DNA of 48,655 nucleotides from Colwellia sp. (lineage in GTDB: Bacteria; Pseudomonadota; Gammaproteobacteria; Enterobacterales; Alteromonadaceae), in contig JAPHTO010000084.1 in assembly GCA_026196955.1 (NCBI GenBank), positions 1-48,655 on the forward strand. The letters are read 5' to 3'. Position 1 is the first letter of the stretch. Every line of letters starts with the position of its first letter. The position numbers and the translations under genes were made by a program. The notes under the pieces are model-generated. The model made no database searches and was not told the DNA's origin. It worked only from the letters and a program-made list of their open reading frames with translations. Below, one piece after another: positions 29,635-46,776 of this stretch.

Positions 29635-30801
29635 ATGAACATGACTCAACGATTTAAAGTAAGCTTGATCACCTCAACATTGGTTATGGCAGCATTTAAC
29701 GCCAATGCCGCTGTTGAGCTCTACAAAAATGACGGTATGTCATTTAGCACCGACGGTTTAGTAAACATATTTTATGTGAACAGTTCAATTGAAACTACAG
29801 ATGACACGGGGACGGTCAGTGATCGTGATCAATCACGGGTTCGCATGGGATTTCTCCCTAATAACATAGGTTTTAATTTCGCTAATCAATTGAGTGATAT
29901 GAAAATTGAAATGCGCTCATCATTTTGGGTGTCAGTGAACGATTCAGATAATCATCGTGATGCATCGCCAGCTGATTTAGGCACCGGCTCTTTGATTGAT
30001 GTTAGGCAGTTTTATGGCAAGGTGAGTGGCGACTGGGGCGAAGTATTACTGGGTAAGGATTTTGGGCTCTTCAACCGCGCAAACATACTTGGTGATGAGT
30101 TATTACTTGGTTATGGCCAAACCTCAGATTTTTTTGGTTTAGTTGATGGCGGTAATGTTTCTTTTGGTAATATTAGTACCGGTTATACTTACCCATTTCC
30201 AAAAGCACAAATAACCTATAGAGCGCCTGAATTTAACGGCTTTAAGCTAGCTGTTGGTATTATGGATCCGAACAAAACCGATAGTAGCTCTTCAGAAGAA
30301 GCGCCACGCATTGAAGCCGAGCTAATGTATACAGCCACCTTTGATGAAACTTCGATTAAAGCATGGGTAAGTGGTGTTTCTCAATCAAGTGAATCAGCTG
30401 GTGTTGAGCAAGATCAATCAGGTATTGGTTATGGTGCCAATATTAAATTTGGTGGTTTATCGCTTTCAGCTTCAGGATTTAGCTCAGAAGGGCTTGGTCA
30501 TGTTGCCGGATTAGATCATATTGTTGGAGATGATGCGATTGAATCAGATGGCTACCTAGTTCAAGCTTCTTATAGCATGGAAGGTAATCGCTTTGTACTG
30601 ACCTATGGTGAGTCGGAAGTGAAAAATACGGGCAGTATTTTAGATGCTACTCACACAAACACCGGTGTCGCATACTTTAGAACCATACGTCCAGGGTTAA
30701 CGCTTGTTGTAGAATATAATAATACTGAAGCTGACGTAACCAACTCATTAGTAGGTGAAGATACTAATACTTTCGCTATTGGCTCGGTTATTACTTTTTA
30801 A
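29635..30801 (+). CDS. Gram-negative porin
   Basis: 388 residues. The signal peptide ends at NANA (about residue 26), then AVELYKNDGMSFSTDGLVNI, a typical start of Porin_4/OmpC-like trimeric porins. The body has alternating amphipathic strands and LPNNIGFNFANQLSDMKIEMRSSFW. RQFYGKVSGDWGEVLLGKDFGLFNR is the usual second-hairpin signature, and the C-terminal residue is Phe (FAIGSVITF). It should let small hydrophilic solutes across the outer membrane. AGGAAG precedes the start; ATG 29641 is also possible. It stands between the DUF3422 gene and the response regulator with its own flanking gaps. Confidence 0.88.
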   Translation: MNMTQRFKVSLITSTLVMAAFNANAAVELYKNDGMSFSTDGLVNIFYVNSSIETTDDTGTVSDRDQSRVRMGFLPNNIGFNFANQLSDMKIEMRSSFWVSVNDSDNHRDASPADLGTGSLIDVRQFYGKVSGDWGEVLLGKDFGLFNRANILGDELLLGYGQTSDFFGLVDGGNVSFGNISTGYTYPFPKAQITYRAPEFNGFKLAVGIMDPNKTDSSSSEEAPRIEAELMYTATFDETSIKAWVSGVSQSSESAGVEQDQSGIGYGANIKFGGLSLSASGFSSEGLGHVAGLDHIVGDDAIESDGYLVQASYSMEGNRFVLTYGESEVKNTGSILDATHTNTGVAYFRTIRPGLTLVVEYNNTEADVTNSLVGEDTNTFAIGSVITF

Positions 30802-30965: not shown

Positions 30966-31622
30966 ATGTATAAAATTTTAGTTGCAGACGATCATCCCTT
31001 GTTTAGAGATGCCATCGTTAATATTATCGGCATAAAATTTCCAGGCTCGACCACCTATGAAACTGAGGATATTGATTCTACGCTTAGCTTTGTTAAAGAT
31101 CATGATGAAATAGATTTAATACTGTTGGATCTTAATATGCCAGGCATGTCGGGCTTAAATGGCTTATTAGATTTACGCAATGAGTGCCCAACAACGCCCG
31201 TTGTTATTGTGTCAGCCGAACAAGAAAAGCAGAAAATTTTGCAAACGCTTTCTTACGGCGCAGTGGGCTTTATTGCCAAATCGTCTTCAAAAGATATTAT
31301 TGGTGAAGCGATAGAAAGTGTTTTTGAAGGTAATGTATATCTGCCTGCAGATATTATGCGCTCACAAGCAAATCCTACGGCTAAAAAAGACTTTGAAGCA
31401 CTCCCCGAGAATATTTCCTTACTCACCCGTCGAGAGTTAATCGTCCTAAAACACTTAACTAAAGGTGAAGCGAACAAGCAAATTGCCTTTAATTTACATA
31501 TTTCAGAAACTACCGTTAAATCCCATGTCTCTTCTATTCTTAAGAAGCTAGGCGCCTCTAATCGGGTAAAAGTTGTGCTGGGGTGCAGTGATATTGATTT
31601 CAACCAGTATCTAAAGCGTTAG
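30966..31622 (+). CDS. LuxR-type response regulator, AgmR/ErbR/PedR1-like
   Basis: 218 residues. The receiver domain opens [17 protein letters not shown], has the phosphoacceptor Asp55 in [13 protein letters not shown] and the switch Lys in GFIAKSS. The C-terminal LuxR helix-turn-helix runs from about 150 ([22 protein letters not shown], then [23 protein letters not shown]). The N-terminal half closely resembles AgmR/ErbR of pseudomonads, the regulator of PQQ ethanol oxidation, from memory of that sequence. It is convergent with the hybrid kinase gene, its plausible partner, and likely controls the dehydrogenase genes. Confidence 0.88.
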
Positions 31623-31684: not shown

Positions 31685-34249
31685 CTACTTTAATAAATAC
31701 AGCATTGAAGTTTTAAGTTTCATTGGCTTCACTGGCTTATTCAACAGTAAAATATCACTATCTTTTACTTCATTTTTGAGTTGTTTACTGTAATTAGCTG
31801 TGATCATCATCACAGGTAATGGCTTTTTACGTAACTCATTGATTTCTTTTGCTACATCAAGTCCATTTATCCCGTCATCAAGGTGATAATCAACAAGTAA
31901 AATATCTGCTTTATCATTACTAATATCCACCTGACGTTGTAAATCTTTTAGGCTTGTTGCGGTTGTTACTATACAGTCCCAACCTTTGAGTAACTGCGAC
32001 ATGCCTGCACAAACATTAGCATCGTTATCAATAAGCCAGATTTTACTTTGTGCTAACACTGGCGTTTCTAAAACTAGATTTAAAGGGTCACTCGACTTGG
32101 GTAAATCACTTATTTTACCAAGCGGTACTTTTACAGAAAACACCGAGCCTTTGCCTAGCGTTGAGTTAACCGTTACTGAGTGCTCTAGCACTTTTGAAAT
32201 TTTATCAACAATGGCTAATCCTAAACCAAGACCATTTCGAAATGCGGTTTGAGAAGATTTAAGACGCTTAAATTCTTTAAAAATTTCTTTGATTTGATCT
32301 TGTGCTATCCCGGTACCATTATCCCAAACTTCAATTGATACATGGTCGCCTTGACGGCGGCAACCTAGTAGTACTTTACCATTGCCAGTATACCTAAAGG
32401 CATTGGAGAGGAAATTACGCAGTATTCTTGCCAGTAACACGCTGTCGCTGTGTACGACAACATCGCTGCTAACATAGTGTAATTTTACTTGAAATTGTTT
32501 ACTACTTTGTTGATATTCACTGACTAAATTATTGAGTAACTCTGATAGTTTAAACGAGCTTTTATCCGCCTTAACAACACCGGCGTCGAGCTTGGAAATA
32601 TCAACTAATGTACAAATTAAATTTTCTAAATCTTCCAGTGAGTTGGCGACCGAGCTAAGTAATGCTTTAGTTTTATTCTCAAAAGGGTTTTCCATTAATG
32701 AGCTAGTAAAAAGTTGGGCAGCATTTAACGGTTGTAGTAAGTCATGGCTAACGGCGGCTAGAAATTTGGTTTTTGAGCTGTTGGCAAACTCAGCTTCACT
32801 TTTTGCTTTTAGTAAGTTTGCTTGCGCCTGACGACGCTCTTCTACTTCAACTTGCAGCTTGTCATTTAAACTTTGTAATTGAAAAGTACGCTCCTGTACT
32901 CTAATTTCAAGTTGATCATGTGCCTTTTGTAAGGCTAAAGCATTTTTTCTTCGATCCGTGATATCACGTATGAGTACAAAAAAACCAAGAACTTCGCCGC
33001 TAACATCCCGGTTTGGCACATAAGATTTAAGTAAATAGCTTGGCTCACCAAATTTATTTTTTTCTTCAATTTCAAAACTGACACTTTCACCTTTTAGGGC
33101 GCGTTCAACATAAGGTCTTAATTGGGTAAAGTTTGAATGAACCCGGCTTTGCTCTAACTCTATTCCATTGAGCCCGCCTTGAGGCCAACCGTACCAGTCA
33201 ACATATACTTGATTAGTAAATTGATATTTTAAGTCTTTGCCTACATAGGCAATCATGGCAGGCACGTTATCGGTGATCAATCGTAACCAGCTTTCACTTT
33301 TTCTCAATGATTCTGCGTAGCGGTGCCGTTCGGTAATATCGCTATAGGTTTTTATGATTTTACCGTTACTTAATCGATGATCCCTTATTTCTAGTACCGT
33401 GCCGTTTGATAGTGCCTGGGTGTATGAACAGCTGTCTATTTGTGATTTAGGGGCTAGATCGAGCTCGGTCAACTGTTGTAGATTCTTAGTACTAGAATTT
33501 GAACGCAGCAGGTTTTTAGGTAATTGACTTATTTGTGCAAAACGTAAGTTCCATACTTCAACTTTATTGTGTTTACTGATCAGCACTACGCCTTGGGAGA
33601 GGTTATCAATTAAGTTTTGCAGCAATAATGATTTTTGTGCCATGCCGCGTTCATAGCGGGCACTTTCTGCCGCTTTTACCGCGGTAATATCTGTGTAGAG
33701 CATGACCCAGCCACCTTCGCTTGTACTATGCTCATTTAGTTGGAACCATCTATCATCAGAGAGTTGATATACAGGGCTGGCAAATTCGTCTCCAGGAGTG
33801 GCGCGTCGAATAATGCCCCGAGTTTTGGCCAACTCTTTTAAATCTTTAAGGTTGGCGCCCTCTACTATCGGCAGGCCTGACTCTTTCCAAAAGTTAGCAA
33901 AATTACTATTTTGCAGGATAATTCGACCCTCGCTGTCGAGTAACACAAAGGCCTCTGAAATGCTTTCTATGGCATCTATAAAACGTTGTTTAAAAAGATT
34001 TGCTTTCGCATTGGCTTGTTTTAATGCGTGATTACTACGTTCTAATTTTGCTAATGTTTCGTTTAGCGTTTGTGTTTTTTCTCTCACTTGCTCGGCTAGG
34101 TGAACTGAATGCTCAAAAGCAGTGTAAGGTGCGTATTGATTTTCTCCACTATCTTCGACTCGCTTCATCAAGGCGTCGTTAATTTTTTTTAGCTTAGTAT
34201 TTTGGTGTTTTAATTGTGCTAGCTCTTCTTTTAATGCTTGCTCATTCAT
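31685..34249 (-). CDS. PAS-containing hybrid histidine kinase, NahK/ErcS'-like
   Basis: 854 residues without membrane segments, so cytoplasmic. Order: N-terminal coiled coil (about 1-95), three PAS-like domains (about 70-190, 205-310, 320-445), a second coiled coil, HisKA with phosphoacceptor His502 in VSHDLLQPLNAA, HATPase_c with LRNFLSNAFRYT and GLGLGLAI, and a C-terminal receiver with Asp787 (LLVDYHL). Size and layout match Pseudomonas NahK (also ErcS'), implicated in NO signalling and ethanol-oxidation control. ATG 34249 has AGGAGG at 34255-34260, inside the end of the FIST gene, which it overlaps by eight bases; this is tight coupling. The PAS ligands are unknown. Confidence 0.87.
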   Translation of the reverse strand: MNEQALKEELAQLKHQNTKLKKINDALMKRVEDSGENQYAPYTAFEHSVHLAEQVREKTQTLNETLAKLERSNHALKQANAKANLFKQRFIDAIESISEAFVLLDSEGRIILQNSNFANFWKESGLPIVEGANLKDLKELAKTRGIIRRATPGDEFASPVYQLSDDRWFQLNEHSTSEGGWVMLYTDITAVKAAESARYERGMAQKSLLLQNLIDNLSQGVVLISKHNKVEVWNLRFAQISQLPKNLLRSNSSTKNLQQLTELDLAPKSQIDSCSYTQALSNGTVLEIRDHRLSNGKIIKTYSDITERHRYAESLRKSESWLRLITDNVPAMIAYVGKDLKYQFTNQVYVDWYGWPQGGLNGIELEQSRVHSNFTQLRPYVERALKGESVSFEIEEKNKFGEPSYLLKSYVPNRDVSGEVLGFFVLIRDITDRRKNALALQKAHDQLEIRVQERTFQLQSLNDKLQVEVEERRQAQANLLKAKSEAEFANSSKTKFLAAVSHDLLQPLNAAQLFTSSLMENPFENKTKALLSSVANSLEDLENLICTLVDISKLDAGVVKADKSSFKLSELLNNLVSEYQQSSKQFQVKLHYVSSDVVVHSDSVLLARILRNFLSNAFRYTGNGKVLLGCRRQGDHVSIEVWDNGTGIAQDQIKEIFKEFKRLKSSQTAFRNGLGLGLAIVDKISKVLEHSVTVNSTLGKGSVFSVKVPLGKISDLPKSSDPLNLVLETPVLAQSKIWLIDNDANVCAGMSQLLKGWDCIVTTATSLKDLQRQVDISNDKADILLVDYHLDDGINGLDVAKEINELRKKPLPVMMITANYSKQLKNEVKDSDILLLNKPVKPMKLKTSMLYLLK

Positions 34250-35390
34250 CAATGCCTCCTGCGATAAAAACGCCGGTAAAGGTTTGATTTAAGTGAATGC
34301 CGTTTATGTGCTCTCCATAGGTATTGAATCCCGCTATGTTGTAGTTGCGACTTAACGTTTGCGCTTCTTTTTCTAAGCCTTTTTGTTCTATTTCTAATCG
34401 CCTTAAAAAACAGTCACAGGTCAATACCAGCTCAGGTTTTCCGTAGCGCTGTGATATTTCACTAAGCTTCTGATTAACAGAATAAAAAATATCACCCATC
34501 TCTACCGCGGTTAATACAATACCCACGTCTACCGCACAATAAAATGTCAGGCTTAAGTCGGTTTCATTTACCTTTTGAATGGAGCGAATATAATAATGAC
34601 CCCCCACTTTTACAGCTAAAGGGTTGAGTGAAAATACTTCAGGACTCAGGTCTTTTATATCCATGTTAAGTAATTTGGCATACTCTAGTGCTGCAGGCTC
34701 AGCATTTAGCTCATATACAGTTCTACTGTCGGCATTGGCTGCGGTCACCACTAATTTTTCTGTCGGTAATTTAATGTGGTGGCAGTTAAAGACCTCGAAC
34801 GGTAAAGTCGTGTTTACCATGATGACAATCGCGGCGTTTTGAAAGAAGCGCCCTTGAAAATATACATGGGTTTTCGCCAAGTTAATATCGTCTCCCGCAG
34901 AGCCACCAAAATGTGGAAATCCTCTTGCAGCCGAATTAAGTGTCACTAAAAATTGCTCTTCATCTGAAGAAAGTCCATCGAGTAAGGTCAGTACAAAGCT
35001 ATTATTTTTGATCTCGGTTAGCTGTTTAGATTGGCATTGCTCAACCAATTCATTAATGGTTGATTGTGCGTTCATGGTATCGAATTTTTCCATCGACTCG
35101 ATAAGGGTCGCGCTAATGGCAAAATACTGAGATGAAAAGCCGATGGCTACAATAGAGTGCTGTTCATAGCCATCATGGGTAACTTCTCCCGCGGTGGTGC
35201 AACCCACAATATTAATATTGTTAAAGGTCTCTTCCATAGTAGGGGCAAGCGTGTCTAGTGCATAAGTTGATGAGCAGTAGAAAAGCACAAAATCGATGTT
35301 TTCTTGGTGAAGTTGTTGAAAAAGCTCTTGGCTAGCAATGATAGGATCGGTTGCCTTACTGACCGCTGTTATTGTTTTTATTGTCTTCAT
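34242..35390 (-). CDS. FIST domain protein, NosP-like sensory protein
   Basis: 382 residues with FIST at about 30-220 (FYCSSTYALDTLAP, IVGCTTAGEV, LLDGLSSDEE, FPHFGGSAGDD) and FIST_C at about 225-365, ending in the family signature AGFNTYGEHINGIHLNQTFTG. NosP of Pseudomonas aeruginosa is a haem-binding FIST protein that senses nitric oxide and is encoded with NahK. The same pairing here, overlapping the kinase gene, makes a NosP-like role likely. Several His residues could ligate haem, but I cannot identify the ligand. It lies 32 bases downstream of the NosR-like gene, probably one operon. Confidence 0.85.
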   Translation of the reverse strand: MKTIKTITAVSKATDPIIASQELFQQLHQENIDFVLFYCSSTYALDTLAPTMEETFNNINIVGCTTAGEVTHDGYEQHSIVAIGFSSQYFAISATLIESMEKFDTMNAQSTINELVEQCQSKQLTEIKNNSFVLTLLDGLSSDEEQFLVTLNSAARGFPHFGGSAGDDINLAKTHVYFQGRFFQNAAIVIMVNTTLPFEVFNCHHIKLPTEKLVVTAANADSRTVYELNAEPAALEYAKLLNMDIKDLSPEVFSLNPLAVKVGGHYYIRSIQKVNETDLSLTFYCAVDVGIVLTAVEMGDIFYSVNQKLSEISQRYGKPELVLTCDCFLRRLEIEQKGLEKEAQTLSRNYNIAGFNTYGEHINGIHLNQTFTGVFIAGGIDE

Positions 35391-35422: not shown

Positions 35423-37582
35423 TCATATCGATTGTTCATGACAGTTCAATCTCTTTATTTGCTCAGGAGATATGGTCCTAATTGCTTTACTTGCATATTT
35501 GTTAACAACACATTGTTTTGGGCTTTCAATGGTAACTAAACATTCCAAGCATTGGATGCATTCTCCATAGTCAATGGAGCCATCTTGATTGATAGCATCG
35601 ATATCACATTTTTTGTTACGACAAAGCTGACATGGAGAGCCGCATTCGTCGCGTCGTCTTAACCATTTAAATAAAGGGAAGTGGCCAACAATGGCCAGTC
35701 CTGCACCTAAAGGGCATAAGTAGCGGCAATAAAATTTATGAATTTTTAAGCTCAATGCTAGAAGTATGACGACATATAAAACAAACGGCCAATAGCGAAC
35801 AAAATTGAGAGTTATGCTGGTTTTAAAAGGCTCTACTTCTGCAAGTTTTTCTGCCAGTGTTAGCGAATAAAAAGCGCTACCAACCAGTAAAATAAGCAGT
35901 ACATACTTTATTTTTTGCGCAGTTTTATGATGATGAGGCTTAATTTTTAGTTGCTTTATTTTCAGTTTATTCGCCACTAAGCCCATTAATTCTTGCATTG
36001 CGCCAAAGGGGCATAGCCAACCGCAGAACATGCCTCTCCCCCAGAGGAATAGTGTGATAAAGACAAACAGCCACAAGATAAAAATTATCGGATCTAATAA
36101 AAATACTTCAATGTTAAAGCCGTGCCAAAGGGATAACAGTAGCGTGTAAATGTTCACTACAGATAATTGCCCTTGTGTATAAAAGCCAATAAAAGCAATA
36201 ACAAAGATCAAAGATAAAAAACGTAGTCGATGAGTAATTCGAGCATGCTTGGCAATAGCTTCTTGCTTAATAAATAAGAAGATCAAAAAAGTAAGGTAAC
36301 TACCTAGTATCAATATTTCAGCGCTACGTGTTATCCAAATGTTAACCCATAGTGGCTGTGTTTCGTCGAGACTAGCGGTGTTTTCTTGTTGAATAAATAA
36401 AGCATCGGGCAAGGTGCTATCGACACTAAACTTATATTGTTGCTTACTTAAAAAAGATTGGTTGTAATTCACCGCGAGGGATAAAGATAAGGTTTTATTC
36501 AATTCAAAACCCGATTGAGATTTTATGCGAAAGACCTTAATTTCATCAAAGTCAGGCACGGTAAGAGCAAATGAAGGATCATAATAGCTATAGAAATCAA
36601 TATCACGAATATCAACGGGTAATGTATCTTGCACTGCACTTAAACGGTTTGGCACGGTTTGCGGAATAAAGTCTTCACTAACAAATGCATAGCTGCCACG
36701 ATTAAACGCCATTAAGGCATGTTCTCCCGGCTTTAAATTGTCAAGTAAACGTTGATACTCTTGCTCGCCTAACAAATTTTTGCCAATGATTGGAATGTTG
36801 ACAAAGGCAAAATATATATCAACAAAATGATTATCTTCTTGGCTGAGGGAGCTGATTTCATTTGCCAGTGTTGCTGAGGAGGTCTCTGCAATGGCTAACG
36901 CATGTTCACGAGTTAATTGCCAGTGGTTAATGTAGTTATTGGCGAGTAGTTGCTCAAAGCTTTGAGGTTGGAAGTGTTCAGGATCAACAATGATTTGTGA
37001 AGGGGCAACAAAGCCCTCAAGTTTTTCTCTTGCTACCTTGAGCGCTGAAGCAATAACCGTGTCGTTAATGACTAATACCGAGATAGTTGCCCGTGTTATA
37101 CCATCGAAATAGGTAGTATCGAGAGATGTTTTGGCGCGCGCATTGATTATAAAGCGCTCTTTAATTGAATGCCCTTGATATTGTTTAATAAAGCGGAACA
37201 TAGGCTGCTCGCCTAAGCCATGTAAAAATATCGGCTCATTATGATTTAATATTTTTAAGCCGGTGAATACCCCTTGGGTATCAATGCCGATTAACAGGTT
37301 AATGGTTTGCCCAGAAAACCCCATAAAATGAGTGAAATCATCTGACTCAAAGGCATAACCTAGTAGCTCATTCAATTGATAAACAGGGATAACGGGGAGC
37401 TTGTTATCAACAGGGCCTACTCTTGTTGCGCTGGGAAATAATTGAGCAATGTCTTTGGAAATGGCTGTGGCGTCTTGATTTGCATAAACATCAAAAACGG
37501 TTGAAAAAAAAGAGAGTGTTAACATAAAGAAAAGGGCAATGGGAACCCAAATTCTCTCATGGTTTATTCTTTTAAAAGGCAT
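35423..37582 (-). CDS. NosR/NirI-like FMN-binding and 4Fe-4S membrane protein
   Basis: About 719 residues. The N-terminal periplasmic region includes an FMN-binding domain with FDGITRATISVLV, whose Thr is a candidate covalent flavin site. A central periplasmic region of about 200 residues precedes five or six membrane helices. Polyferredoxin-type motifs WLCPFGAMQE and CRYLCPLGAG come next, and a cytoplasmic Cys-rich tail (CGSPCQLCRNKKCDID, then CIQCLECL) can hold further clusters. NosR and NirI pass electrons across the membrane for nitrous oxide or nitrite reduction, but no nos or nir gene is present here. Start is uncertain: ATG 37582 (MPFKR) or ATG 37606. It is probably co-transcribed with the FIST and kinase genes. 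Confidence 0.82.
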   Translation of the reverse strand: MPFKRINHERIWVPIALFFMLTLSFFSTVFDVYANQDATAISKDIAQLFPSATRVGPVDNKLPVIPVYQLNELLGYAFESDDFTHFMGFSGQTINLLIGIDTQGVFTGLKILNHNEPIFLHGLGEQPMFRFIKQYQGHSIKERFIINARAKTSLDTTYFDGITRATISVLVINDTVIASALKVAREKLEGFVAPSQIIVDPEHFQPQSFEQLLANNYINHWQLTREHALAIAETSSATLANEISSLSQEDNHFVDIYFAFVNIPIIGKNLLGEQEYQRLLDNLKPGEHALMAFNRGSYAFVSEDFIPQTVPNRLSAVQDTLPVDIRDIDFYSYYDPSFALTVPDFDEIKVFRIKSQSGFELNKTLSLSLAVNYNQSFLSKQQYKFSVDSTLPDALFIQQENTASLDETQPLWVNIWITRSAEILILGSYLTFLIFLFIKQEAIAKHARITHRLRFLSLIFVIAFIGFYTQGQLSVVNIYTLLLSLWHGFNIEVFLLDPIIFILWLFVFITLFLWGRGMFCGWLCPFGAMQELMGLVANKLKIKQLKIKPHHHKTAQKIKYVLLILLVGSAFYSLTLAEKLAEVEPFKTSITLNFVRYWPFVLYVVILLALSLKIHKFYCRYLCPLGAGLAIVGHFPLFKWLRRRDECGSPCQLCRNKKCDIDAINQDGSIDYGECIQCLECLVTIESPKQCVVNKYASKAIRTISPEQIKRLNCHEQSI

Positions 37583-37662
37583 GCTAACACTCAAATAAAT
37601 CGTCATAAGCTTTAGCAATATTGCGCAAAGGCTTAGTTAAATTGTTTGAATTTGAAAGGGAA

Positions 37663-37716: not shown

Positions 37717-39237
37717 TTAAAAGAAGCCTAAAGGACTAGTGCTGTAACTCACAAGCAAGTTTTTAGTTTGCTGATAATGGTCAAGCATCATTTTGTGGGT
37801 TTCACGACCAATTCCCGATTTTTTATAACCACCAAAAGCAGCATGGGCAGGGTATAAATGATAACAGTTAGTCCACACACGTCCTGCTTGAATGCCTCGA
37901 CCCATTCGATAGGCTAAGTTAGTATCGCGAGTCCATACACCAGCGCCTAAGCCATATGCCGTATCGTTAGCGATGGCAAGTGCTTCTGCTTCATCTTTAA
38001 AGGTTGTTACTGCGATTACTGGTCCAAAAATTTCTTCTTGGAAAACGCGCATTGAGTTATCACCTTTCATGATGGTTGGTTGAACGTAGTAACCACTTTG
38101 TAGTGAATCACCTAAATTCTCTTTATCACCGCCCGTTAAGACTTGAGCACCCTCTTGAACACCAATGTTTAAATAGCTCATGATTTTATCAAACTGCTCT
38201 TGAGAGGCTTGTGCACCAACCATGGTGGTGGTGTCTAAGGGGTTACCTCGAATAATTTTCTTCGTTTTCTCTATGACTTTCTCCATAAAGGTTTCAAAAA
38301 TATCTTCCTGAACAAGTGCGCGAGAAGGGCAAGTACATACTTCACCTTGGTTGAAAAAGCCAAGAACAAAACCTTCAGCACATTTTTCAAGGTAATCATC
38401 TTCAAACTGAGTAACATCGCCAAAATAAATATTAGGAGATTTACCGCCTAGCTCTACGGTAGAAGGGATTAAGTTTTCAGCAGCACATTTTAGAATGTGA
38501 CCACCAACAGCCGTTGAACCCGTAAAAGCAATTTTGGCAATTCGTGTGCTGGTTGCTAAGGCTTCACCAGCTTCTTTACCATAACCATTGACTATGTTGA
38601 GTACGCCGTTTGGTAATAAATCAGCAATAATCTCCATCAATACTAGAATACTGGCCGGCGTTTGTTCTGCAGGTTTTAGTATAATGCAGTTGCCTGCTGC
38701 AAGTGCTGGAGCAAGTTTCCAAGCGGCCATCAATAGTGGAAAATTCCATGGAATGATTTGCCCAACAACACCGATTGGCTCGTGAAAGTGGTAGGCAACG
38801 GTGTCGTTGTCAATTTCGGATAAACTGCCTTCTTGAGCGCGAATACAGCCGGCATAATAGCGAAAGTGATCAGAGCTTAACGGCACATCAGCTGCGAGCG
38901 TTTCACGGACTGCTTTACCATTATCCCATGTTTCAGCGACAGCAAGGGCTTCTAAGTTTTCATCAATACGATCTGCTATCTTGAGTAAAATATTCGAGCG
39001 CTCTTGTACCGAAGTGCGGCCCCAAGCATCTTTAGCGGCATGAGCAGCATCCAGTGCTAATTCAATATCTTCCGCACTGGAACGTGGAATTTGACAGAAC
39101 TCTTCACCGGTTACAGGTGTGGTGTTGGTAAAATAATTTCCTTTTACAGGAGGCACCCATTGACCATTGATAAAGTTTTCATATTTAGGTTTAAAAGAAA
39201 CGACAGAACCTTCACTGCCTGGGTATGCGTAGATCAT
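37717..39237 (-). CDS. NAD-dependent aldehyde dehydrogenase, ExaC/AldB type
   Basis: 506 residues. Catalytic Cys301 lies in [12 protein letters not shown], the general base Glu262 in VELGGKSP, the oxyanion Asn165 in PWNFPL and the NAD-binding Lys188 in [22 protein letters not shown] near the C-terminus is typical of acetaldehyde dehydrogenases of the AldB/ExaC group. It should oxidise the aldehyde formed by the neighbouring PQQ alcohol dehydrogenase to the acid in the cytoplasm. GAGGTGAT directly before the ATG is a strong ribosome site. The dehydrogenase gene upstream ends in a strong terminator, so this gene probably has its own promoter in the 245-base gap. Confidence 0.93.
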
Positions 39238-39482: not shown

Positions 39483-41246
39483 CTATTTAGGAAGTTTAAA
39501 GGTCCAGACACTACCACCTTGATTTAAGTGTTTGACGCGTTTAGCAACATCACCACCCCACAGTGGTACGGCGCCACCCCAGCCAGATAATACACTCAGG
39601 TATTGCTCGCCATTCATTTCCCATGTTATAGGTGAACCAACAATGCCTGAGCCAGTATTAAATTTATATTTCACTTCACCCGTTTTAGCATCAAGGCCTA
39701 GCAGGTAACCTTCAGGGTTACCCATAAAGACTAAGTTGCCTGCCGTAGTAAGCACACCGCCCCAAAGTGGCGAGTAGTTTTTATAACGCCAAACTTCTTT
39801 GCCTGTTTTAGGATCGATGGCTTTTAACACCCCAATATAGTCATCATTAATGGCCTTAATGGTAAAACCAGCACCAAGGTAAGCAGCGCCTTTTTTGTAG
39901 GCTGTTGGTTCATTCCATATATCCATTTGCCATTCATTTGAGGGGACATAAAATAGCTCAGTGTCTTTGCTGTAAGCCATTGGCATCCAGTTTTTACCCC
40001 CTAAGAATGAAGGCGCGGCAACGACAGTACTGCCTTTTTTACCGTCTTTTGCTTTACTTGGATCACTGGGTCTGTTGCTGTCGATAAAAAGAGGGCGGCC
40101 TTTCTTATCAAGCCCTGAAGCCCAAGATATTTTATCAACAAAAGGGAAACCTCGAATGAAATCACCATTTTCACGATTAAGTACGTAGAAAAAGCCGTTT
40201 CTGTCAGCCGTAGCTGCTGCTTTGATAGTTTTCCCTTTTTCTTTATAGTCGAAAGGAATAAGCTCGTTAACACCATCGTAATCCCAACCATCGTGTGGTG
40301 TGGTTTGGAAGTGCCAAACAATTTTGCCGTTATCAGGGTTAATTGCTAAACGCGATGCTGAAAAGTAGTTATCGCCTGGGCGTAAGTGAGAGTTCCATGG
40401 TGCAGGGTTACCAGTACCAAAAAATAGTAAATCAACATCGGCATCATAGGTTCCACCTAACCAAGGTGCCGCCCCACCAGATTTCCATAAATCTCCCGGC
40501 CATGTTTGCCCAGGTTTACCGCCAGAAATACCGTTTTCAAGCTTTTTACCCTTCTTCCATATATAGCCCATATGGCCTTCAACAGTAGGTCGCTCCCAAA
40601 CTAACTTACCGTTTTTTGCATCATAAGCTCTTACTTTACCAACAATACCGAATTCGCCACCAGATACACCAGTGATGATTTTTCCTTTCACAACAATAGG
40701 CGCTGCGGTGATGGAATAACCTGCTTTATAATCTTCAACTTTCTTTTTCCATACCACTTTACCGGTATCTTTATTCAGTGCCACGAGTTTTGCATCGAGA
40801 GTACCAAAAATAACGAGGTTGTCGTACAGTGCGACACCACGGTTGATGACATCACAACAAGGCATAATGCCGTCGGGTAGTCGGGCATCATATTGCCACA
40901 GTTCATCACCTGTATTGGCATCTATTGCGTAAACACGCGAATAAGAGCCAGAAATATACATGACACCATCTTTGACTAGTGGTTGTGACTCTTGTCCACG
41001 CTGTTTTTCACCACCTAATGAAAATGCCCATACTGGACGCATTTCTTTAACGGTATCTATATTTATTTTATCAAGAGGGCTGTAGCGTTGTCCTCTTAGA
41101 CCAAGTCCATAGGATACTACGTCTTCAGTTGTCATTTGATCATTGGCAATATCTTTATTGGTTACGCCTGCATTTGCTAGGCCAGTAAAGGCTAAAGAGA
41201 TGGCCATAGATAATGACAATACCTTGGTTTTACCTGCTGTTATCAT
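39483..41246 (-). CDS. PQQ-dependent alcohol dehydrogenase with lanthanide signature
   Basis: 587 residues of the methanol/ethanol dehydrogenase family, a periplasmic eight-bladed propeller with signal peptide ending ANA (residue 26). Family features: vicinal Cys130-Cys131 (MPCCD) for the disulfide over PQQ, Glu198 (SGGEFG) and Asn280 (GTGNPAPWN) as metal ligands, catalytic Asp322 in [11 protein letters not shown], and tryptophan-docking repeats. Asp324, two residues after the catalytic Asp, is the extra ligand found in lanthanide-dependent XoxF and PedH. Calcium enzymes carry Ala or Ser there. Substrate is probably a short-chain or other primary alcohol. AAGAGGAAATAACA precedes the ATG. Electrons should go to the PedF-type cytochrome encoded upstream. 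Confidence 0.93.
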
Positions 41247-41451: not shown

Positions 41452-42351
41452 TTAGCGTGACTCTTCGAGGAAAGAGTACAACTCTGGACGCTGATAGACG
41501 GCGCTATACTGGTCAAATATTTTCTTTAGATGTCCTTGCTTTATCATGCTTTCGACAATGTCGGCTATGGCGTAGCCTAGTTGACGATAATCACTTTTCA
41601 CTGCCATTCCTATATCCCACTGCTGCCGACCTATCATTGGAAAAGCATTGCTTGCTAACGGGTAGGCAGAAGCGTTTAATTGCTGTTGGTAATGACTTAC
41701 TTGGCTACGTAAGCCCATCACGGCATCAACCTTGTTTTCACGCATGGCCGAGATGGCGAGTGGCAATGAAGGGTAGTGTTTGGTTTTATTACGCATACGG
41801 CCATTAAAAGCAGACATTAGATAAAACTGGGGGATAGAATCTACTTCAACACCAATGTTGTGGTATTGAAAAATAGCCATGGTAGAAACTGAATCAATTT
41901 TTTGATTATTAAAGATTATTTTCCATGATTCAGTATGGTAAGGAGCGAACATGTGCACTTGCTCATGGACAAGCTCACCAATATCGTCACGTAGTTGTGT
42001 GTATTTTTTATCGTAGGGAACTCTCAACATTAAATCAGCAACACTACGTTGCAGATAATGTCCTTTCCAAAGGTTATTGCGTAGATCGTCTTCAACATTT
42101 TCATCGGCAGTCATCCATCTTAAACGCAGTGTGACACCCAATTCTTTGGCGATATGCTTGGCTACTTCAACATCTATACCTTTTGCTGCGCCATTTTCTT
42201 GATATGAAAATGGAACGAAATCTCGATAAACGGCAACGGTAATTTCGTTGCTGGCAATGATGTCGTCAAACGAACGTGCAAAAGTTGTTGTGGCAAAAAG
42301 ACCCCAACAACTTAACCACAAGAGTAGTAGGTAGCTATTACTCTTTTTCAC
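41452..42351 (-). CDS. MoxJ-like periplasmic binding protein of the quinoprotein dehydrogenase system
   Basis: 299 residues. After a signal peptide ending near residue 25 (FARSFDD), the fold is that of bacterial extracellular solute-binding protein family 3: EITVAVYRDFVPFSYQENGAAKGIDVEVAKHIAKELG, later AISAMRENKVDAVMGLRSQ. Proteins of this kind adjoin PQQ dehydrogenases (TIGR03871 type), and MxaJ/XoxJ are thought to help activate or bind the dehydrogenase rather than import a nutrient. The start is GTG 42351, overlapping the cytochrome gene by 14 bases, so the two are coupled. The dehydrogenase gene lies 205 bases downstream. Confidence 0.87.
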   Translation of the reverse strand: MKKSNSYLLLLWLSCWGLFATTTFARSFDDIIASNEITVAVYRDFVPFSYQENGAAKGIDVEVAKHIAKELGVTLRLRWMTADENVEDDLRNNLWKGHYLQRSVADLMLRVPYDKKYTQLRDDIGELVHEQVHMFAPYHTESWKIIFNNQKIDSVSTMAIFQYHNIGVEVDSIPQFYLMSAFNGRMRNKTKHYPSLPLAISAMRENKVDAVMGLRSQVSHYQQQLNASAYPLASNAFPMIGRQQWDIGMAVKSDYRQLGYAIADIVESMIKQGHLKKIFDQYSAVYQRPELYSFLEESR

Positions 42352-42775
42352 TGACAGACTCTAACCAAGTTCTAATTGACCAAAGTGCTTCTTGATTTAA
42401 ATGCTCTGTCATTTTTGGCATATACACAGCACCGTTACGTACAGCACCATTTTGCACACGATAGATGTACCATTCATCACCGTCATAATCTGTTGCTAAC
42501 TGGCGTAAATCAGGGGCAATACCACCTGATATACCTTCTAACCCATGACAGCGAGCACAGTTTTGATTATAGGCTGATGCGCCAATGCGTAAAATTTCTT
42601 TACGTGTATCACCTTGTTCGTCTCTATAGGGGTTGGTTTCTTCCCACTCTTCGCTTAACTTAGGTAATGTTGAGGTATCAACAGATTGTGGAGTTACAGG
42701 GCCGTGAGCTGCTATGCCAAATGAACAAATTGCTATTATTGCAGCAAGATAGCCACGGCCTAAATTAAATTTCAT
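42338..42775 (-). CDS. Periplasmic cytochrome c, PedF / c-550 type
   Basis: 145 residues. A signal peptide runs to about residue 22 (CSFGIAAHG). One haem c site CARCH lies near residue 78 and a candidate axial Met in YMPKMTEHL near 120. It should accept electrons from the PQQ dehydrogenase. The TLPKLSEEWEETNPYR stretch before the haem is typical of the c-550 PedF group. I chose ATG 42775 with AAGG just upstream; the open frame reaches 42889 but that N-terminus is basic and not signal-like. It heads the minus-strand genes and is divergent from the ABC system. Confidence 0.88.
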   Translation of the reverse strand: MKFNLGRGYLAAIIAICSFGIAAHGPVTPQSVDTSTLPKLSEEWEETNPYRDEQGDTRKEILRIGASAYNQNCARCHGLEGISGGIAPDLRQLATDYDGDEWYIYRVQNGAVRNGAVYMPKMTEHLNQEALWSIRTWLESVSEKE

Positions 42776-43073
42776 CATCGCCTTATACCTTTTTCTACGT
42801 AAATTAATTGTTGTGCTTAATGTTGATGTAGCCATCTTATCGAGGTTGGTGATGAACAAGAATTGTACTTTAGCGCCGTTAACTATCATCCTTTAGTATG
42901 ATTTTATCTTAATAAAAACAAAGATTAAGGGAATATCTTTTTGTTTATCAAATGATTAGCTTGGTTGTCTTCTGTGGTGGAGCTTTTTACTTTATAAAGT
43001 TTTTCTATATGCTTATACCGAGTGCATCAATATAAGAGATAGTTATTGGTGTTGTTTTTTATTTGGGAGCGCT

Positions 43074-44270
43074 ATGTTTGTTCAGCCAAGAGCCATGATT
43101 AAAAAGTACGGACTAAAAAGTGCCACTATGTGCCTGTGGCTTTTTTGTTGTCATGCCTTTTCAAGTCCGATTATGCTCAATATCAGTTATGTAAAGCTTG
43201 TTCAGCAACAGCCTCATACCTTATCGAAAATACTTAAAAAACCAGATGATAGTGGTTACTCTGGGGCAAAACTTGCCATAAATGACTCTAATACCACGGG
43301 GAAATTTTTACAGCAACACTTTCAGCTAAGCTATTATGCTGAAGAAGAAATATCGAAATTTTTACCCTTGTTAGAGAGTGAATATCAGCAAGGAAAGCGT
43401 ATTTTTATTATTGATGCGCCAATAGCACAATTAGTGCAAATAAATCGTTGGGCAAAGGCTAAAGCTGTGCTGTTGTTTAATGTGAGTGAGTCAGCAGATA
43501 CCTTGCGTAATAGCCAATGTCTTGAGGCTATATTTCATACTATTCCAAGTAATGCTATGAGATCAGATGCCCTCGCGCAGTGGTTACTTTATCGTCGCAT
43601 GAATAAGGTGCTCTTGGTACATGGTAATCATGTTGAAGATAAGCAACTAGCGACTTCATTTAAACGCTCAGCTAAACGTTTTGGCATAAAAATAATCGCT
43701 GAAAAACAGTGGGATTTTAATACCGATCTCAGACGTAGTGCGCAGCAAGAAATTCCATTATTTACCCAAACCATGCAGGATTATGAAGCCGTTTATGTTG
43801 CCGACAAATCTAAACAATTTGCTGAGTTTTTACCCTTTAATACCTACTTGCCTCGACCGGTTATCGGCTCAGCAGGCTTGGAAGCATTGGCATGGCATAG
43901 TGTGATTGAACAGTGGGGAGCGACTCAGTTGCAGCATCGTTTTACCCAGTTGACGGATAGAGTCATGAATGAAATCGATTTTTCGGCTTATCTTGCCGTA
44001 CGTAGTGTTGCCCAGACAGTACATAAGATTCACTCAAATGAGAGTGAAAAGATCATTGACTATATTCGCTCTGATGCCTTTGAATTGGCTGCTTATAAAG
44101 GACGGAAACTCAGCTTTAGATCTTGGAATCAACAATTAAGAATGCCGCTGGCTTTAGTGCATCCTCACGCATTAGTCTCACAATCACCCCAGCCGGGTAT
44201 GCTTCATCCTGTGACCGAACTTGATACCTTAGGGTTCGACATTCAAGAGTCTCAATGTAAAAGTGAATGA
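43074..44270 (+). CDS. ABC-system periplasmic binding protein, PQQ-alcohol-dehydrogenase associated (PedA1-like)
   Basis: 398 residues. A signal peptide ends near residue 31 (CCHAFSS), then LNISYVKLVQQQPHTLSKIL. It looks like the type I periplasmic binding protein family restricted to PQQ alcohol dehydrogenase loci (TIGR03863 type). The first gene of a four-gene plus-strand operon whose counterparts in Pseudomonas putida (PedA1A2BC) are needed for growth with rare earths. The mature protein holds GYSGAKLAINDSNTTGKFL and a type-I fold core QEIPLFTQTMQDYEAVYVADKS. The ligand cannot be read from sequence. GGGAGC before ATG 43074 supports the start. Confidence 0.83.
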   Translation: MFVQPRAMIKKYGLKSATMCLWLFCCHAFSSPIMLNISYVKLVQQQPHTLSKILKKPDDSGYSGAKLAINDSNTTGKFLQQHFQLSYYAEEEISKFLPLLESEYQQGKRIFIIDAPIAQLVQINRWAKAKAVLLFNVSESADTLRNSQCLEAIFHTIPSNAMRSDALAQWLLYRRMNKVLLVHGNHVEDKQLATSFKRSAKRFGIKIIAEKQWDFNTDLRRSAQQEIPLFTQTMQDYEAVYVADKSKQFAEFLPFNTYLPRPVIGSAGLEALAWHSVIEQWGATQLQHRFTQLTDRVMNEIDFSAYLAVRSVAQTVHKIHSNESEKIIDYIRSDAFELAAYKGRKLSFRSWNQQLRMPLALVHPHALVSQSPQPGMLHPVTELDTLGFDIQESQCKSE

Positions 44271-44279
44271 GAGTAATTT

Positions 44280-45260
44280 ATGAAAAAAATATTAGTGCTT
44301 AGTTTATTGGTTTTGGCTACTTACTTTAACAGTGCTTTGGCTCTTAGTAATGAATTTGCTTATGTGACCAATGAAAAAGATGACAATATTTCAGTGATTG
44401 ATTTATCGCAATTTAGTGTAGTCAAAGAAATTGCCGTCGGTCAGCGGCCAAGAGGGATCATTTTCAATAAAGAGCAGACGCTTGCTTATCTTTGTGCAAG
44501 TGAGTCAGATAGTATTCAAATACTTGATGTCAAATCAGAGCAAATTATTGGTGAATTACCCTCGGGTGAAGATCCTGAAACTATTGCATTACACCCAAAT
44601 GGTAAAACAATTTATACTTCAAACGAAGATGATGCCTTGCTGACGGTGATTGATATTGCCTCTGCCACTGTTATTACTCAGGTTGATGTTGGTGTTGAGC
44701 CTGAAGGATTAGCGGTAAGCCCAGATGGAAAAATTGTTGTTGTCACTTCTGAAACCACCAATATGGTGCATTGGATAGATACGCAAACGCATAAGAATTT
44801 TGCCAATACCTTAGTTGGCGCAAGACCAAGATCAGCTAAATTTACTGATGATGGTAAGTTTCTATGGGTAAGTGCTGAAATTGGCGGCACTGTCGTCATA
44901 TTAGATGTTGCTAACCAGCAGATAATTAAAGAGTTCACCTTTGATGTTCGTGGCATACATAGAGATCGCGTGCAGCCTGTTGGCATTGAATTAACAGCAG
45001 ATGGTAAGTATGCATTTGTCGCATTGGGGCCAGCAAATCACGTGGCTGTGATTGACCGAGCAACAATGGCTGTAGAGAAGTATTTATTGGTTGGCCGCAG
45101 AGTATGGCAACTCGCTTTTAACCATGATCAATCGCAACTGTTAACAACCAATGGTATCAGTGGTGATGTATCTGTCATTGATGTTCAGCGTTTGAAAGTC
45201 AAAAAATCTATTAAAGTCGGGCGATACCCTTGGGGTGTTGCAATACGGTACGTGCCATGA
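44280..45260 (+). CDS. YVTN-repeat beta-propeller protein, PQQ-catabolism associated (PedA2-like)
   Basis: 326 residues with a signal peptide ending ALA (about residue 21). About seven YVTN-type repeats are visible, for example FAYVTNEKDDNISVIDL, TIYTSNEDDALLTVIDI, FVALGPANHVAVIDR and LLTTNGISGDVSVIDV, giving a periplasmic seven-bladed propeller (TIGR03866 type). Members sit beside this ABC transporter in PQQ alcohol oxidation loci. A role as periplasmic metal or cofactor carrier is inferred. It follows the binding protein gene by nine bases, and its stop overlaps the ATPase start (ATGA). Confidence 0.88.
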   Translation: MKKILVLSLLVLATYFNSALALSNEFAYVTNEKDDNISVIDLSQFSVVKEIAVGQRPRGIIFNKEQTLAYLCASESDSIQILDVKSEQIIGELPSGEDPETIALHPNGKTIYTSNEDDALLTVIDIASATVITQVDVGVEPEGLAVSPDGKIVVVTSETTNMVHWIDTQTHKNFANTLVGARPRSAKFTDDGKFLWVSAEIGGTVVILDVANQQIIKEFTFDVRGIHRDRVQPVGIELTADGKYAFVALGPANHVAVIDRATMAVEKYLLVGRRVWQLAFNHDQSQLLTTNGISGDVSVIDVQRLKVKKSIKVGRYPWGVAIRYVP

Positions 45261-45985
45261 GTATTGTGACCAATCAGCTTACATATTATTATGGTAAAAA
45301 GGCTGCCATCAATGAATTGAGCATTAACCTTACTCAAGGCTTTAATGTCTTGCTTGGCCCTAATGGCGCAGGAAAAAGTACCTTATTTTCAATGTTAACA
45401 GGTCTGTATCAGGCTGCATCTGGTGATATTAAGATCAATGGTTATGACTTTCGTGATAACAAAGCCGACATCATGCGATCTATGGGGGTTGTTTTTCAAC
45501 AAAGCACCCTAGATTTAGATTTATCGGTAAAGCAAAATTTACTTTATTTTGCAGGCTTACATGGTATTTCATCATCACAAGCGCTAGAAAATATTCACTC
45601 AATTTTGACACAACTAGCCTTGATGCCACGTCTTAATGATAAAGTGAGAGCTTTAAATGGTGGGCACCGTCGTCGCGTTGAAATAGCACGTTCATTAATT
45701 CATCAACCGAAAGTTTTGCTACTTGATGAGGCAACAGTCGGCCTTGATATCGACAGTCGAAAGATGATCACCCAATACGTTAAAACACTTTGTCAACAGA
45801 GGGGGATTTGTGTGTTATGGGCGACACACCTAATGGACGAGGTATCAGATGATGATCATTTACTTATTATCAACGAAGGTAATATTCAAGCTCAAGGCGT
45901 AAGCAGTACTTTATGTAAAAAGCATCAGGCTGATGATGTATATCAGCTTTACCGACGCTTAACCGCGAATGCAGAGCTTGTCTGA
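45257..45985 (+). CDS. ABC ATPase of the PQQ-associated transporter (PedB-like)
   Basis: 242 residues. Walker A GPNGAGKSTLF, Q-loop VFQQSTLDLDLSV, Walker B VLLLDEATVGLD and switch His in LWATHLMDE are present. The signature is LNGGHRRR instead of the usual LSGGQ(M)xR; the Gly pair is kept. The fold is of the ABC-2 associated (NatA/CcmA-like) class, TIGR03864 type. I chose ATG 45257 overlapping the propeller stop; the in-frame ATG at 45230 lies inside the previous gene. The permease start overlaps its own stop. Confidence 0.9.
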   Translation: MSIVTNQLTYYYGKKAAINELSINLTQGFNVLLGPNGAGKSTLFSMLTGLYQAASGDIKINGYDFRDNKADIMRSMGVVFQQSTLDLDLSVKQNLLYFAGLHGISSSQALENIHSILTQLALMPRLNDKVRALNGGHRRRVEIARSLIHQPKVLLLDEATVGLDIDSRKMITQYVKTLCQQRGICVLWATHLMDEVSDDDHLLIINEGNIQAQGVSSTLCKKHQADDVYQLYRRLTANAELV

Positions 45986-46776
45986 TGAATAACCGTTACC
46001 TTTATTGTTTTAATGGCATTGTGAAACGTGAAGTTTTACGTTTCTTCCAGCAACGTGCGCGTTTACTGAGTGCTCTCGTAAGACCCTTACTTTGGTTGGT
46101 TGTTTTTGCGGCAGGCTTTAGAGCTGCTTTAGGGGTTTCGATTATGGAGCCTTATGGCACCTATATCACTTATCAGCAGTATATTACCCCAGGCCTTTGC
46201 TGCATGATTATTTTGTTTAATGGTATGCAAAGCTCGCTTTCTATGGTTTACGACCGTGAAATGGGCAGTATGAAAGTCTTGTTAATGAGCCCTTTGCCAC
46301 GCCCTTTTTTGCTGTGTTGTAAGCTAATTGCCAGCGCGTTGTTATCACTTTTACAGGTAGTCATTTTCCTGTTTTTTGCTCAGTGGCTGGAGGTTGATAT
46401 TCCTCTTGTTGGTTATGTCAGTGCGGTGCCCGCTATATTCTTAATTGCTTTTTTTCTCGGCGCATTGGGATTAATGCTGTCAAACCTCATCAAACAATTG
46501 GAAAATTTTGCCGGCGTGATGAATTTTGTTATTTTTCCGATGTTCTTTTTATCAAGTGCCTTATATCCGCTATGGAAAATGCAAGAAGCCAGCCTCTGGT
46601 TATATTGGTTATGTCAATTTAACCCTTTTACCGCCTGCGTTGAGTTATTGCGTTTTGCGCTGTACGAACAAATTAACTTGTCTGCCTTAGCGACTGTGTT
46701 AATAGCAACAACGATTGCATCATGTTTTGCTTTAGTGAGTTTTAGGCCTCAACAAGGTAAAAAACACCAAGGCTAA
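45985..46776 (+). CDS. ABC-2 type permease of the PQQ-associated transporter (PedC-like)
   Basis: 263 residues with six hydrophobic helices. The ABC-2 pattern is visible as the N-terminal KREVLRFFQQRARLLSALVRPLLWL, then YITPGLCCMIILFNGMQSSLSMVYDREMGSMKVLLMSPLPR, the typical coupling region, and FFLSSALYPLW. It starts on the ATGA overlap with the ATPase gene, so all four genes form one operon. ABC-2 permeases are usually exporters, yet the Ped/Lut counterparts are genetically tied to lanthanide uptake, so direction is unresolved. Confidence 0.9.
   Translation: MNNRYLYCFNGIVKREVLRFFQQRARLLSALVRPLLWLVVFAAGFRAALGVSIMEPYGTYITYQQYITPGLCCMIILFNGMQSSLSMVYDREMGSMKVLLMSPLPRPFLLCCKLIASALLSLLQVVIFLFFAQWLEVDIPLVGYVSAVPAIFLIAFFLGALGLMLSNLIKQLENFAGVMNFVIFPMFFLSSALYPLWKMQEASLWLYWLCQFNPFTACVELLRFALYEQINLSALATVLIATTIASCFALVSFRPQQGKKHQG

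Follow-up and report, generated by a model that had tools for sequence, protein, structure and literature searches.

The closest described relative of the enzyme reported here is PedH of Pseudomonas putida KT2440 (6zcv, 6zcw), whose lanthanide ligands are Glu199, Asn281, Asp323 and Asp325; the position of the extra Asp in ExaF and PedH is usually occupied by Ser or Thr in enzymes of the ExaA/PedE type (PMC11845868). The ATP-binding cassette (ABC) system PedA1A2BC is reported to be essential for PedH-dependent growth of P. putida, and the same review describes this organism as having no LutH homologue and calls its outer-membrane lanthanide route unresolved (PMC12997753). In M. extorquens, lutH and lanmodulin both lie within the lut cluster (PMC7391723). 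Here, we describe a stretch of 48,655 nucleotides from Colwellia sp. (GenBank assembly GCA_026196955.1, contig JAPHTO010000084.1), referred to below in its entirety as the window, which encodes a pyrroloquinoline quinone (PQQ)-dependent alcohol dehydrogenase of 587 residues. We conclude that this protein is very probably a PedH orthologue with a lanthanide active site, encoded within a conserved gene block that also carries a PedA1A2BC/LutABEF-type ABC set and a TonB-dependent receptor, TBDT1. Sequence comparisons directly show the residues and the relatedness, as well as the gene block and the co-occurrence, on which this conclusion draws.

The enzyme and its metal site

A sequence search of the Protein Data Bank ranked PedH first (6zcv and 6zcw, about 1000 bits), followed by ExaA (1flg, 657 bits) and XoxF (6dam, 369 bits). 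Quinohemoproteins scored 356 bits in the same search, and the CxxCH haem motif is absent from the whole of the protein. In the HMMER alignment with 6zcv, 412 of 575 aligned residues (72%) are identical. The original prediction had proposed a lanthanide-type DxD signature in the context GWDYDGVNE, and the in-frame codons GGT TGG GAT TAC GAT GGT GTT AAC GAG, on the minus strand within 40300-40260, bear this out. Glu198, Asn280 and the vicinal Cys pair, which had been noted as intact, are all in register with PedH (Table 1). When the protein is aligned with PedH, XoxF and ExaA, Asp324 falls on the lanthanide position rather than off it, in a column that holds Asp in XoxF (6dam, 6oc5) and Ser in ExaA (1flg; WDFS).

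These comparisons led us to reject two other identities. XoxF methanol dehydrogenase shares the DxD and the metal ligands; it is, however, outscored by both PedH and ExaA, and the neighbours in the window are ped-type, not xox-type. The calcium-dependent ethanol dehydrogenases ExaA and PedE belong to the same family and share the Cys pair, and we take PedF- and ExaC-type neighbours to be common to their loci and the window, but Asp, not Ser or Thr, is present at position 324. The product of the 39483-41246 gene is thus assigned by homology to the known PedH type. Together with its Asp324, the 72% identity and a ped-type cluster support the original reading of a lanthanide-type enzyme, and its dependence on lanthanides may reasonably be presumed.

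The prevalence of the extra Asp was assessed in 196 genomes from the window's family, 22 of which contain a PQQ-dependent alcohol dehydrogenase match at E <= 1e-60. Among 29 other such enzymes in this sample, the 17 full-length ones with at least 60% identity all have Asp at the D324 position, an ExaA-like protein has Ser, six have Thr and four have Ala; one further sequence is a fragment without coverage of the site. A second draw comprised 370 genomes from the class, in which enzymes were accepted at E <= 1e-100 and receptors at E <= 1e-80, with at most three enzyme and two receptor candidates scored per genome, so that copies may be missed. Here, Asp occupies the position in 79 of the 113 PQQ dehydrogenases of all types listed from 65 genomes, the window's own included. 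This agrees with a survey that reports the lanthanide motif in 61% of 6,328 PQQ dehydrogenases of marine origin (PMC11996626). D324 is a reliable marker of PedH-type enzymes, yet it is common across PQQ dehydrogenases overall.

A metal-flexible enzyme, working mainly with calcium and tolerating D324 without using it, has to be considered. Calcium is some 10^9-fold more abundant than lanthanides in sea water, and DxD is not absolutely diagnostic, the same Asp being found in glucose dehydrogenases (PMC11996626). Moreover, PedH itself appears capable of coordinating Ca2+ without rare earths (PMC11845868). Against this stand the 72% identity to an enzyme of reported lanthanide dependence, with every ligand conserved, and the presence of a lanthanide-type ABC set within the block; we regard mainly calcium-dependent function as very unlikely.

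Occurrence of the receptor TBDT1

The block of conserved content spans positions 20787-46776 of the window, although gene order varies and some genes are missing among relatives, as judged from stretches fetched from 18 other PedH-bearing genomes of the family; none of the window genes outside these limits was found in those stretches. TBDT1 lies at one end of the block. Its orthologues were sought in 42 of the 196 family genomes, namely the 22 with a PQQ-dependent alcohol dehydrogenase, seven of the same genus without one and 13 others without one (E <= 1e-60). They were found in 19/19 genomes with a PedH-type enzyme and in 0/23 of the remainder (0/3 with only other PQQ-dependent alcohol dehydrogenases, 0/20 without any). 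The enzyme reads as DxD in 18 of these 19 genomes, and the remaining one has a fragment from which the site is missing. Five genera (g1, g3, g5, g8 and g10) mix carriers and non-carriers, and the distributions of TBDT1 and PedH agree in all of them. The gap between enzyme and receptor in the family is usually about 6-25 kb, reaching 42 kb in genome G100, and the two are on separate contigs in two drafts.

In the class draw, a receptor profile built from the 19-sequence TBDT1 alignment (A1) matched 34 of the 370 genomes, and the enzyme was found in 65. All 34 receptor carriers have at least one DxD enzyme, mostly with EWDYDG as in XoxF, and the receptor occurs in 0/13 genomes with only non-DxD enzymes and in 0/305 without an enzyme match. 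As the genomes are related by descent, Fisher values for these associations overstate the evidence. In two carriers (G337 and G486), the DxD contexts are all atypical, none being WD[YF]DG. In G253, G460 and G491, no more than about 0.6 kb separates the receptor from an EWDYDG enzyme. A draw from the phylum gave the receptor in 44 of 397 genomes (E <= 1e-50). Two receptor-less genomes, G322 and G339, carry a PedH-like enzyme together with a DxS enzyme, as P. putida does.

Eighty named receptor loci were also inspected; 13 have a PQQ-dependent alcohol dehydrogenase in the stretch and 67 have none within at most 10 kb. The 13 enzymes comprise nine of the PedH type with DxD (one of them, in L120, in two frames), two of another type with AWDWDEVS and two ExaA-like DxS enzymes. 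In two Colwellia metagenome-assembled genomes, a second TBDT1 homologue lies near an aldehyde dehydrogenase and a different PQQ dehydrogenase, which has 36% identity and the motif AWDWDEVS (L127 and L128); both genomes already hold a TBDT1 homologue (L121 and L124). The nearest named relatives of the receptor are from Colwellia, followed by Paraglaciecola and other marine Alteromonadales, which fits the marine Alteromonadales host originally proposed. TBDT1 matches were present in 24 plasmid records, of which nine regions were examined. In four of these, from Sphingobium indicum, Novosphingobium, Burkholderia multivorans and B. cenocepacia, the TBDT1 relative has a DxD dehydrogenase no more than 7 kb away. 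In Ideonella dechloratans (plasmid locus L367), the TBDT1 relative adjoins a two-component system and is 3-6 kb from an MbnP copper-binding protein and a methanobactin-annotated MATE exporter.

Several of the occurrence data weigh against a strict tie between receptor and lanthanide enzyme. In the class draw, 18 of the 52 genomes with a DxD enzyme have no TBDT1 at the threshold used. In two Alteromonadaceae loci (L157 and L176), a TBDT1 relative stands beside an ExaA-like DxS enzyme (AWDFSGNN), an observation made at the level of the neighbourhood. Among the plasmids, the Methylobacterium nodulans region has an MxaF-type WDYA enzyme besides lanmodulin, and no PQQ dehydrogenase was found in the flank of four of the nine regions (Methylocalor, M. 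fujisawaense, Ideonella and Caballeronia).

The association could also have arisen through mere co-transfer of a 26-kb island, with no functional tie between TBDT1 and PedH. The sharp borders of the block, the flanking genes not being found in the fetched relatives, and the joint absence of enzyme and receptor from the seven same-genus genomes sampled favour such an event. However, TBDT2, a SsuA-like ABC transporter and a DUF3422 gene are missing from several blocks whereas TBDT1 is present in all, the 42-kb gap in G100 takes TBDT1 away from PedH, and in 27 of the 34 class carriers, many of them drafts, the receptor and every listed enzyme are on different contigs. Co-transfer alone is, in our judgement, distinctly unlikely to account for the pattern.

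PQQ supply and possible ligands of the receptors

In the window genome, whose assembly is 95.5% complete in 167 contigs, PqqC gave no match, the best PqqE match reached 88 bits against a cut-off of 381, and no second PQQ-dependent alcohol dehydrogenase exceeded the family cut-off, two others scoring 40 and 19 bits. PqqE is over the cut-off in 11 of the 22 family genomes with a PQQ-dependent alcohol dehydrogenase and not in the other 11. Eight PedH genomes besides the window genome have neither PqqC nor PqqE. Because three PqqE-negative genomes (G117, G141 and G164) consist of one or two contigs with 100% completeness, an assembly gap is not the sole cause of the missing PQQ synthesis; such a gap is possible in the window genome. 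Very probably, PQQ is not synthesised in the cell that carries the window and has to be imported. Scavenging of this kind is known: where the importer PqqU is present, the biosynthesis genes were found in only 23% of bacteria (PMC12124388). The apparent lack of PQQ synthesis is a further point against a working enzyme, which could be idle without scavenged PQQ, and growth on alcohols, which had been suggested as an assay, would probably call for a PQQ supplement. In the nine PqqE-less PedH genomes, nothing matched the PqqU model at E <= 1e-70 among the candidates scored, which were 21 per genome of up to 84, and all 29 in the window genome.

Three related observations were made elsewhere in the family. 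The genome with the closest PedH (89%) has a two-piece PqqC match below the cut-off (G163:C1:288029-288726) near a PqqE match over the cut-off, perhaps reflecting decaying PQQ synthesis or a sequencing error. The PedH match of Colwellia maritima is divided between two overlapping reading frames (L120:1823-3623), and PqqE was not found in that genome. About 5 kb separates a PqqU-like receptor from a PQQ dehydrogenase of the WDWA type in G100:C14 (L045, L029); G100 also has PedH and TBDT1.

TBDT1 was first suspected of being a PQQ importer since the window genome has no PqqC or PqqE and TBDT1 is its best match to the PqqU model. An AlphaFold model shows a TonB-receptor fold with a mean predicted local distance difference test (pLDDT) score of 71 and several loops below 50; the barrel is fair, and as most of the loops bearing invariant acidic motifs are below 50, no metal site is deduced from the model. 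PqqU (YncD) is the nearest solved relative by sequence (phmmer, 4e-17), which counts against a lanthanide ligand, and is the second-ranked fold match. The PqqU signature is an aromatic residue at Y99 together with R304 and R365 (PMC12124388). In TBDT1, L100 and T361 occupy the columns of Y99 and R304, whereas R419 is retained for R365, with the alignment uncertain near R304, where a second PqqU is gapped. Among 161 relatives of TBDT1, Leu is present in 134 at the Y99 column, Arg in 34 at the R304 column and Arg in 149 at the R365 column.

Import of PQQ, or of a PQQ-lanthanide complex, by TBDT1 would be in keeping with the kinship to PqqU, the nine PedH genomes without PqqC and PqqE, the retained R419 and the Arg found at the R304 column in a minority of relatives. 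But two of the three signature residues are absent, the receptor is equally common in PqqE-positive (10) and PqqE-negative (9) PedH genomes, and it is absent from 13 class genomes and three family genomes with only non-DxD PQQ enzymes. TBDT1 also groups with a lanmodulin-linked receptor. The signature and the pattern of occurrence lowered our estimate of this function, and we now think it unlikely.

The grouping with the lanmodulin-linked receptor comes from a tree of 67 receptors, in which the TBDT1 clade takes in 54 (FastTree support 0.92) and excludes PqqU, TBDT2 and other receptors. Within the clade is a receptor from the M. nodulans plasmid pMNOD02, encoded two genes from a protein matching lanmodulin (6mi5) at 5e-38; it is 28.7% identical to TBDT1 over 76% of the length. 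Any kinship to LutH and LanA, the lanthanide receptors of methylotrophs, is judged from this lanmodulin-linked receptor. Methanotroph metagenome-assembled genomes, among them those of Methyloprofundus and Methylococcaceae, hold more distant relatives; LanA is reportedly absent from a cultured Methyloprofundus that has XoxF alone (PMC8788690). Parts of the TBDT1 family may already be on record, since published surveys describe 41 receptors from 11 orders that cluster with the Methylobacteriaceae rare-earth receptors (PMC11996626) and plasmid-borne lanA- and lutH-like genes in unrelated taxa (PMC12482762). In the open-licence full text searched, we found no paper tying this receptor family to PedH, nor any on lanthanides and PQQ with TonB receptors in Alteromonas.

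Acidic residues that are invariant in the 19 sequences fall into four groups: D306, D307 and D309; D527, E528 and D530, between C525 and C532; D689, E690 and E693; and E737, D739 and E740. Among the 161 relatives, C525 and C532 are kept in at least 97%, and D309, D527, D689 and E690 are acidic in at least 90%, the other acidic residues falling below this level. Such motifs would suit metal handling and prove nothing. Taking the evidence together, we consider it probable that TBDT1 takes up a lanthanide or a lanthanide chelate.

The second receptor, TBDT2, is found in the fetched block of 9/9 PqqE-less and 1/10 PqqE-positive PedH genomes of the family (Fisher 1.2e-4, a value which, like those that follow, overstates the evidence because the genomes share ancestry). 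Identity is just 39% in three of the nine PqqE-less copies; leaving these aside gives 6/9 and 1/10 (Fisher 0.02). Another set, of 47 genomes with unstated completeness, has genera in common with the family set; there, TBDT2 occurs in the flank of 3/5 genomes without PqqE and 5/42 with it (Fisher 0.029). Paraglaciecola mesophila, a culturable PedH carrier, is one of the PqqE-less strains. All of these counts cover fetched stretches, so that copies elsewhere would be missed. TBDT2 does not have the PqqU signature: Y115 falls at Y99, but the R304 column holds N323 and the R365 column is gapped, in an alignment that is uncertain in distant loops. A role for TBDT2 as a PQQ importer is a lead only.

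In the mechanism that we envisage, TBDT1 would bring in a lanthanide or its chelate, and the periplasmic enzyme would hold a light lanthanide through E198, N280, D322 and D324. As a PedH-type enzyme, it would oxidise short alcohols, passing electrons to the neighbouring PedF cytochrome and the aldehyde product to the neighbouring ExaC-type aldehyde dehydrogenase. More tentatively, we suggest that the cell may run its sole PQQ-dependent alcohol dehydrogenase on two scavenged cofactors: a lanthanide entering through TBDT1, whose receptor family would span several classes of bacteria with PedH or XoxF, and PQQ entering by a second route, possibly TBDT2, that would replace the lost synthesis genes. 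TBDT1 might then be the missing outer-membrane step for the PedH bacteria of this group.

Neighbouring genes and significance of the locus

The features of the locus are collected in Table 1. The window shares with P. putida the kinds of neighbour found around PedH, namely PedF, an aldehyde dehydrogenase, PedA1A2BC-type genes and NosP-NahK. The ABC set is complete, with binding protein, beta-propeller protein, ATPase and permease all over curated cut-offs. Unlike P. putida, the window genome has no PedE-type partner over the cut-off, and neither PqqC nor PqqE was found in it; TBDT1 and the NosR-like gene are not among the P. putida ped genes in the consulted part of Table 1 of the ped review (PMC12997753).

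Table 1. Features of the ped block in the window
Feature	Position	Strand	Basis
TBDT1, TonB-dependent receptor, candidate lanthanide receptor	20787..23105	+	Co-occurrence, tree, TonB-receptor fold, PqqU signature incomplete
TBDT2, second TonB-dependent receptor	23244..25421	+	Tracks absence of PQQ synthesis, imperfectly
SsuA-like ABC transporter	25470..28055	+	Family matches below cut-offs
SsuA-like binding protein	25470..26474	+	
SsuA-like permease	26471..27319	+	
SsuA-like ATPase	within 27258..28055	+	
Putative porin	29635..30801	+	Named from sequence reading; 0 NCBIfam families
LuxR-type response regulator, nearest named model ErdR	30966..31622	+	NF041830, 153.8 bits, below cut-off 390
NahK/ErcS-type hybrid histidine kinase	31685..34252	-	NF041832, 529.6 bits, cut-off 400
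NosP nitric-oxide sensing protein	34242..35390	-	NF041558, 562 bits, cut-off 450
NosR-like protein	35423..37618	-	NF046105, 623 bits, below cut-off 1000
ExaC/PedI-type aldehyde dehydrogenase	37717..39237	-	NF050026, 966.9 bits, cut-off 900
PedH-type PQQ alcohol dehydrogenase, 587 residues	39483..41246	-	TIGR03075, 790.5 bits, cut-off 480
Lanthanide-position Asp324 codon (GAT)	40275..40277	-	Aligns with PedH Asp325; Ser in ExaA
Catalytic Asp322 codon (GAT)	40281..40283	-	Aligns with PedH Asp323
Asn280 codon, metal ligand position	40407..40409	-	Aligns with PedH Asn281
Glu198 codon, metal ligand position	40653..40655	-	Aligns with PedH Glu199
Vicinal Cys130-Cys131 codons	40854..40859	-	Align with PedH Cys131-Cys132
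Periplasmic substrate-binding protein in PedG/XoxJ place	41452..42351	-	Weak assignment: TIGR01096, 3e-14; TIGR03871 MoxJ_2, 1e-4; both below cut-off
Cytochrome c-550 PedF, presumed electron acceptor	42338..42889	-	TIGR04494, 190 bits, cut-off 122; one CxxCH
PedA1/LutA-type ABC substrate-binding protein	43074..44270	+	TIGR03863, 491 bits, over cut-off
PedA2/LutB-type beta-propeller protein	44280..45260	+	TIGR03866, 511 bits, over cut-off
PedB/LutE-type ABC ATPase	45260..45985	+	TIGR03864, 349 bits, over cut-off
PedC/LutF-type ABC permease	45985..46776	+	TIGR03861, 479 bits, over cut-off

The gene for the periplasmic binding protein is conserved beside the alcohol dehydrogenase in relatives, and the putative porin is conserved in most readable blocks. 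The SsuA-like transporter, which adjoins the two TonB-dependent receptors, is present in many but not all of the relatives' PedH blocks. The nitric-oxide sensing pair NosP-NahK sits within the ped block, as in Pseudomonas, and an NnrS-like gene, so named from sequence reading, is found outside the conserved block at 16098-17303. The NosR-like gene is present in 18/18 PedH blocks readable at that point, the window included. Its product contains a DGITRAT sequence, which we take to be a flavinylation-like motif, and it could be an electron-transfer or maturation partner; no paper on NosR with a PQQ-dependent alcohol dehydrogenase was found in open-licence full text.

As PedH-type enzymes with DxD are already known, the interest of this locus lies in the receptor encoded in the same block and in the pqq genes that were not found. 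According to the ocean survey, the small number of known rare-earth receptors limits the discovery of ones unlike those of the Methylobacteriaceae (PMC11996626). The TBDT1 gene makes it possible to probe the outer-membrane lanthanide route in culturable marine bacteria, and the apparent lack of PQQ synthesis would leave the enzyme dependent on two environmental cofactors.

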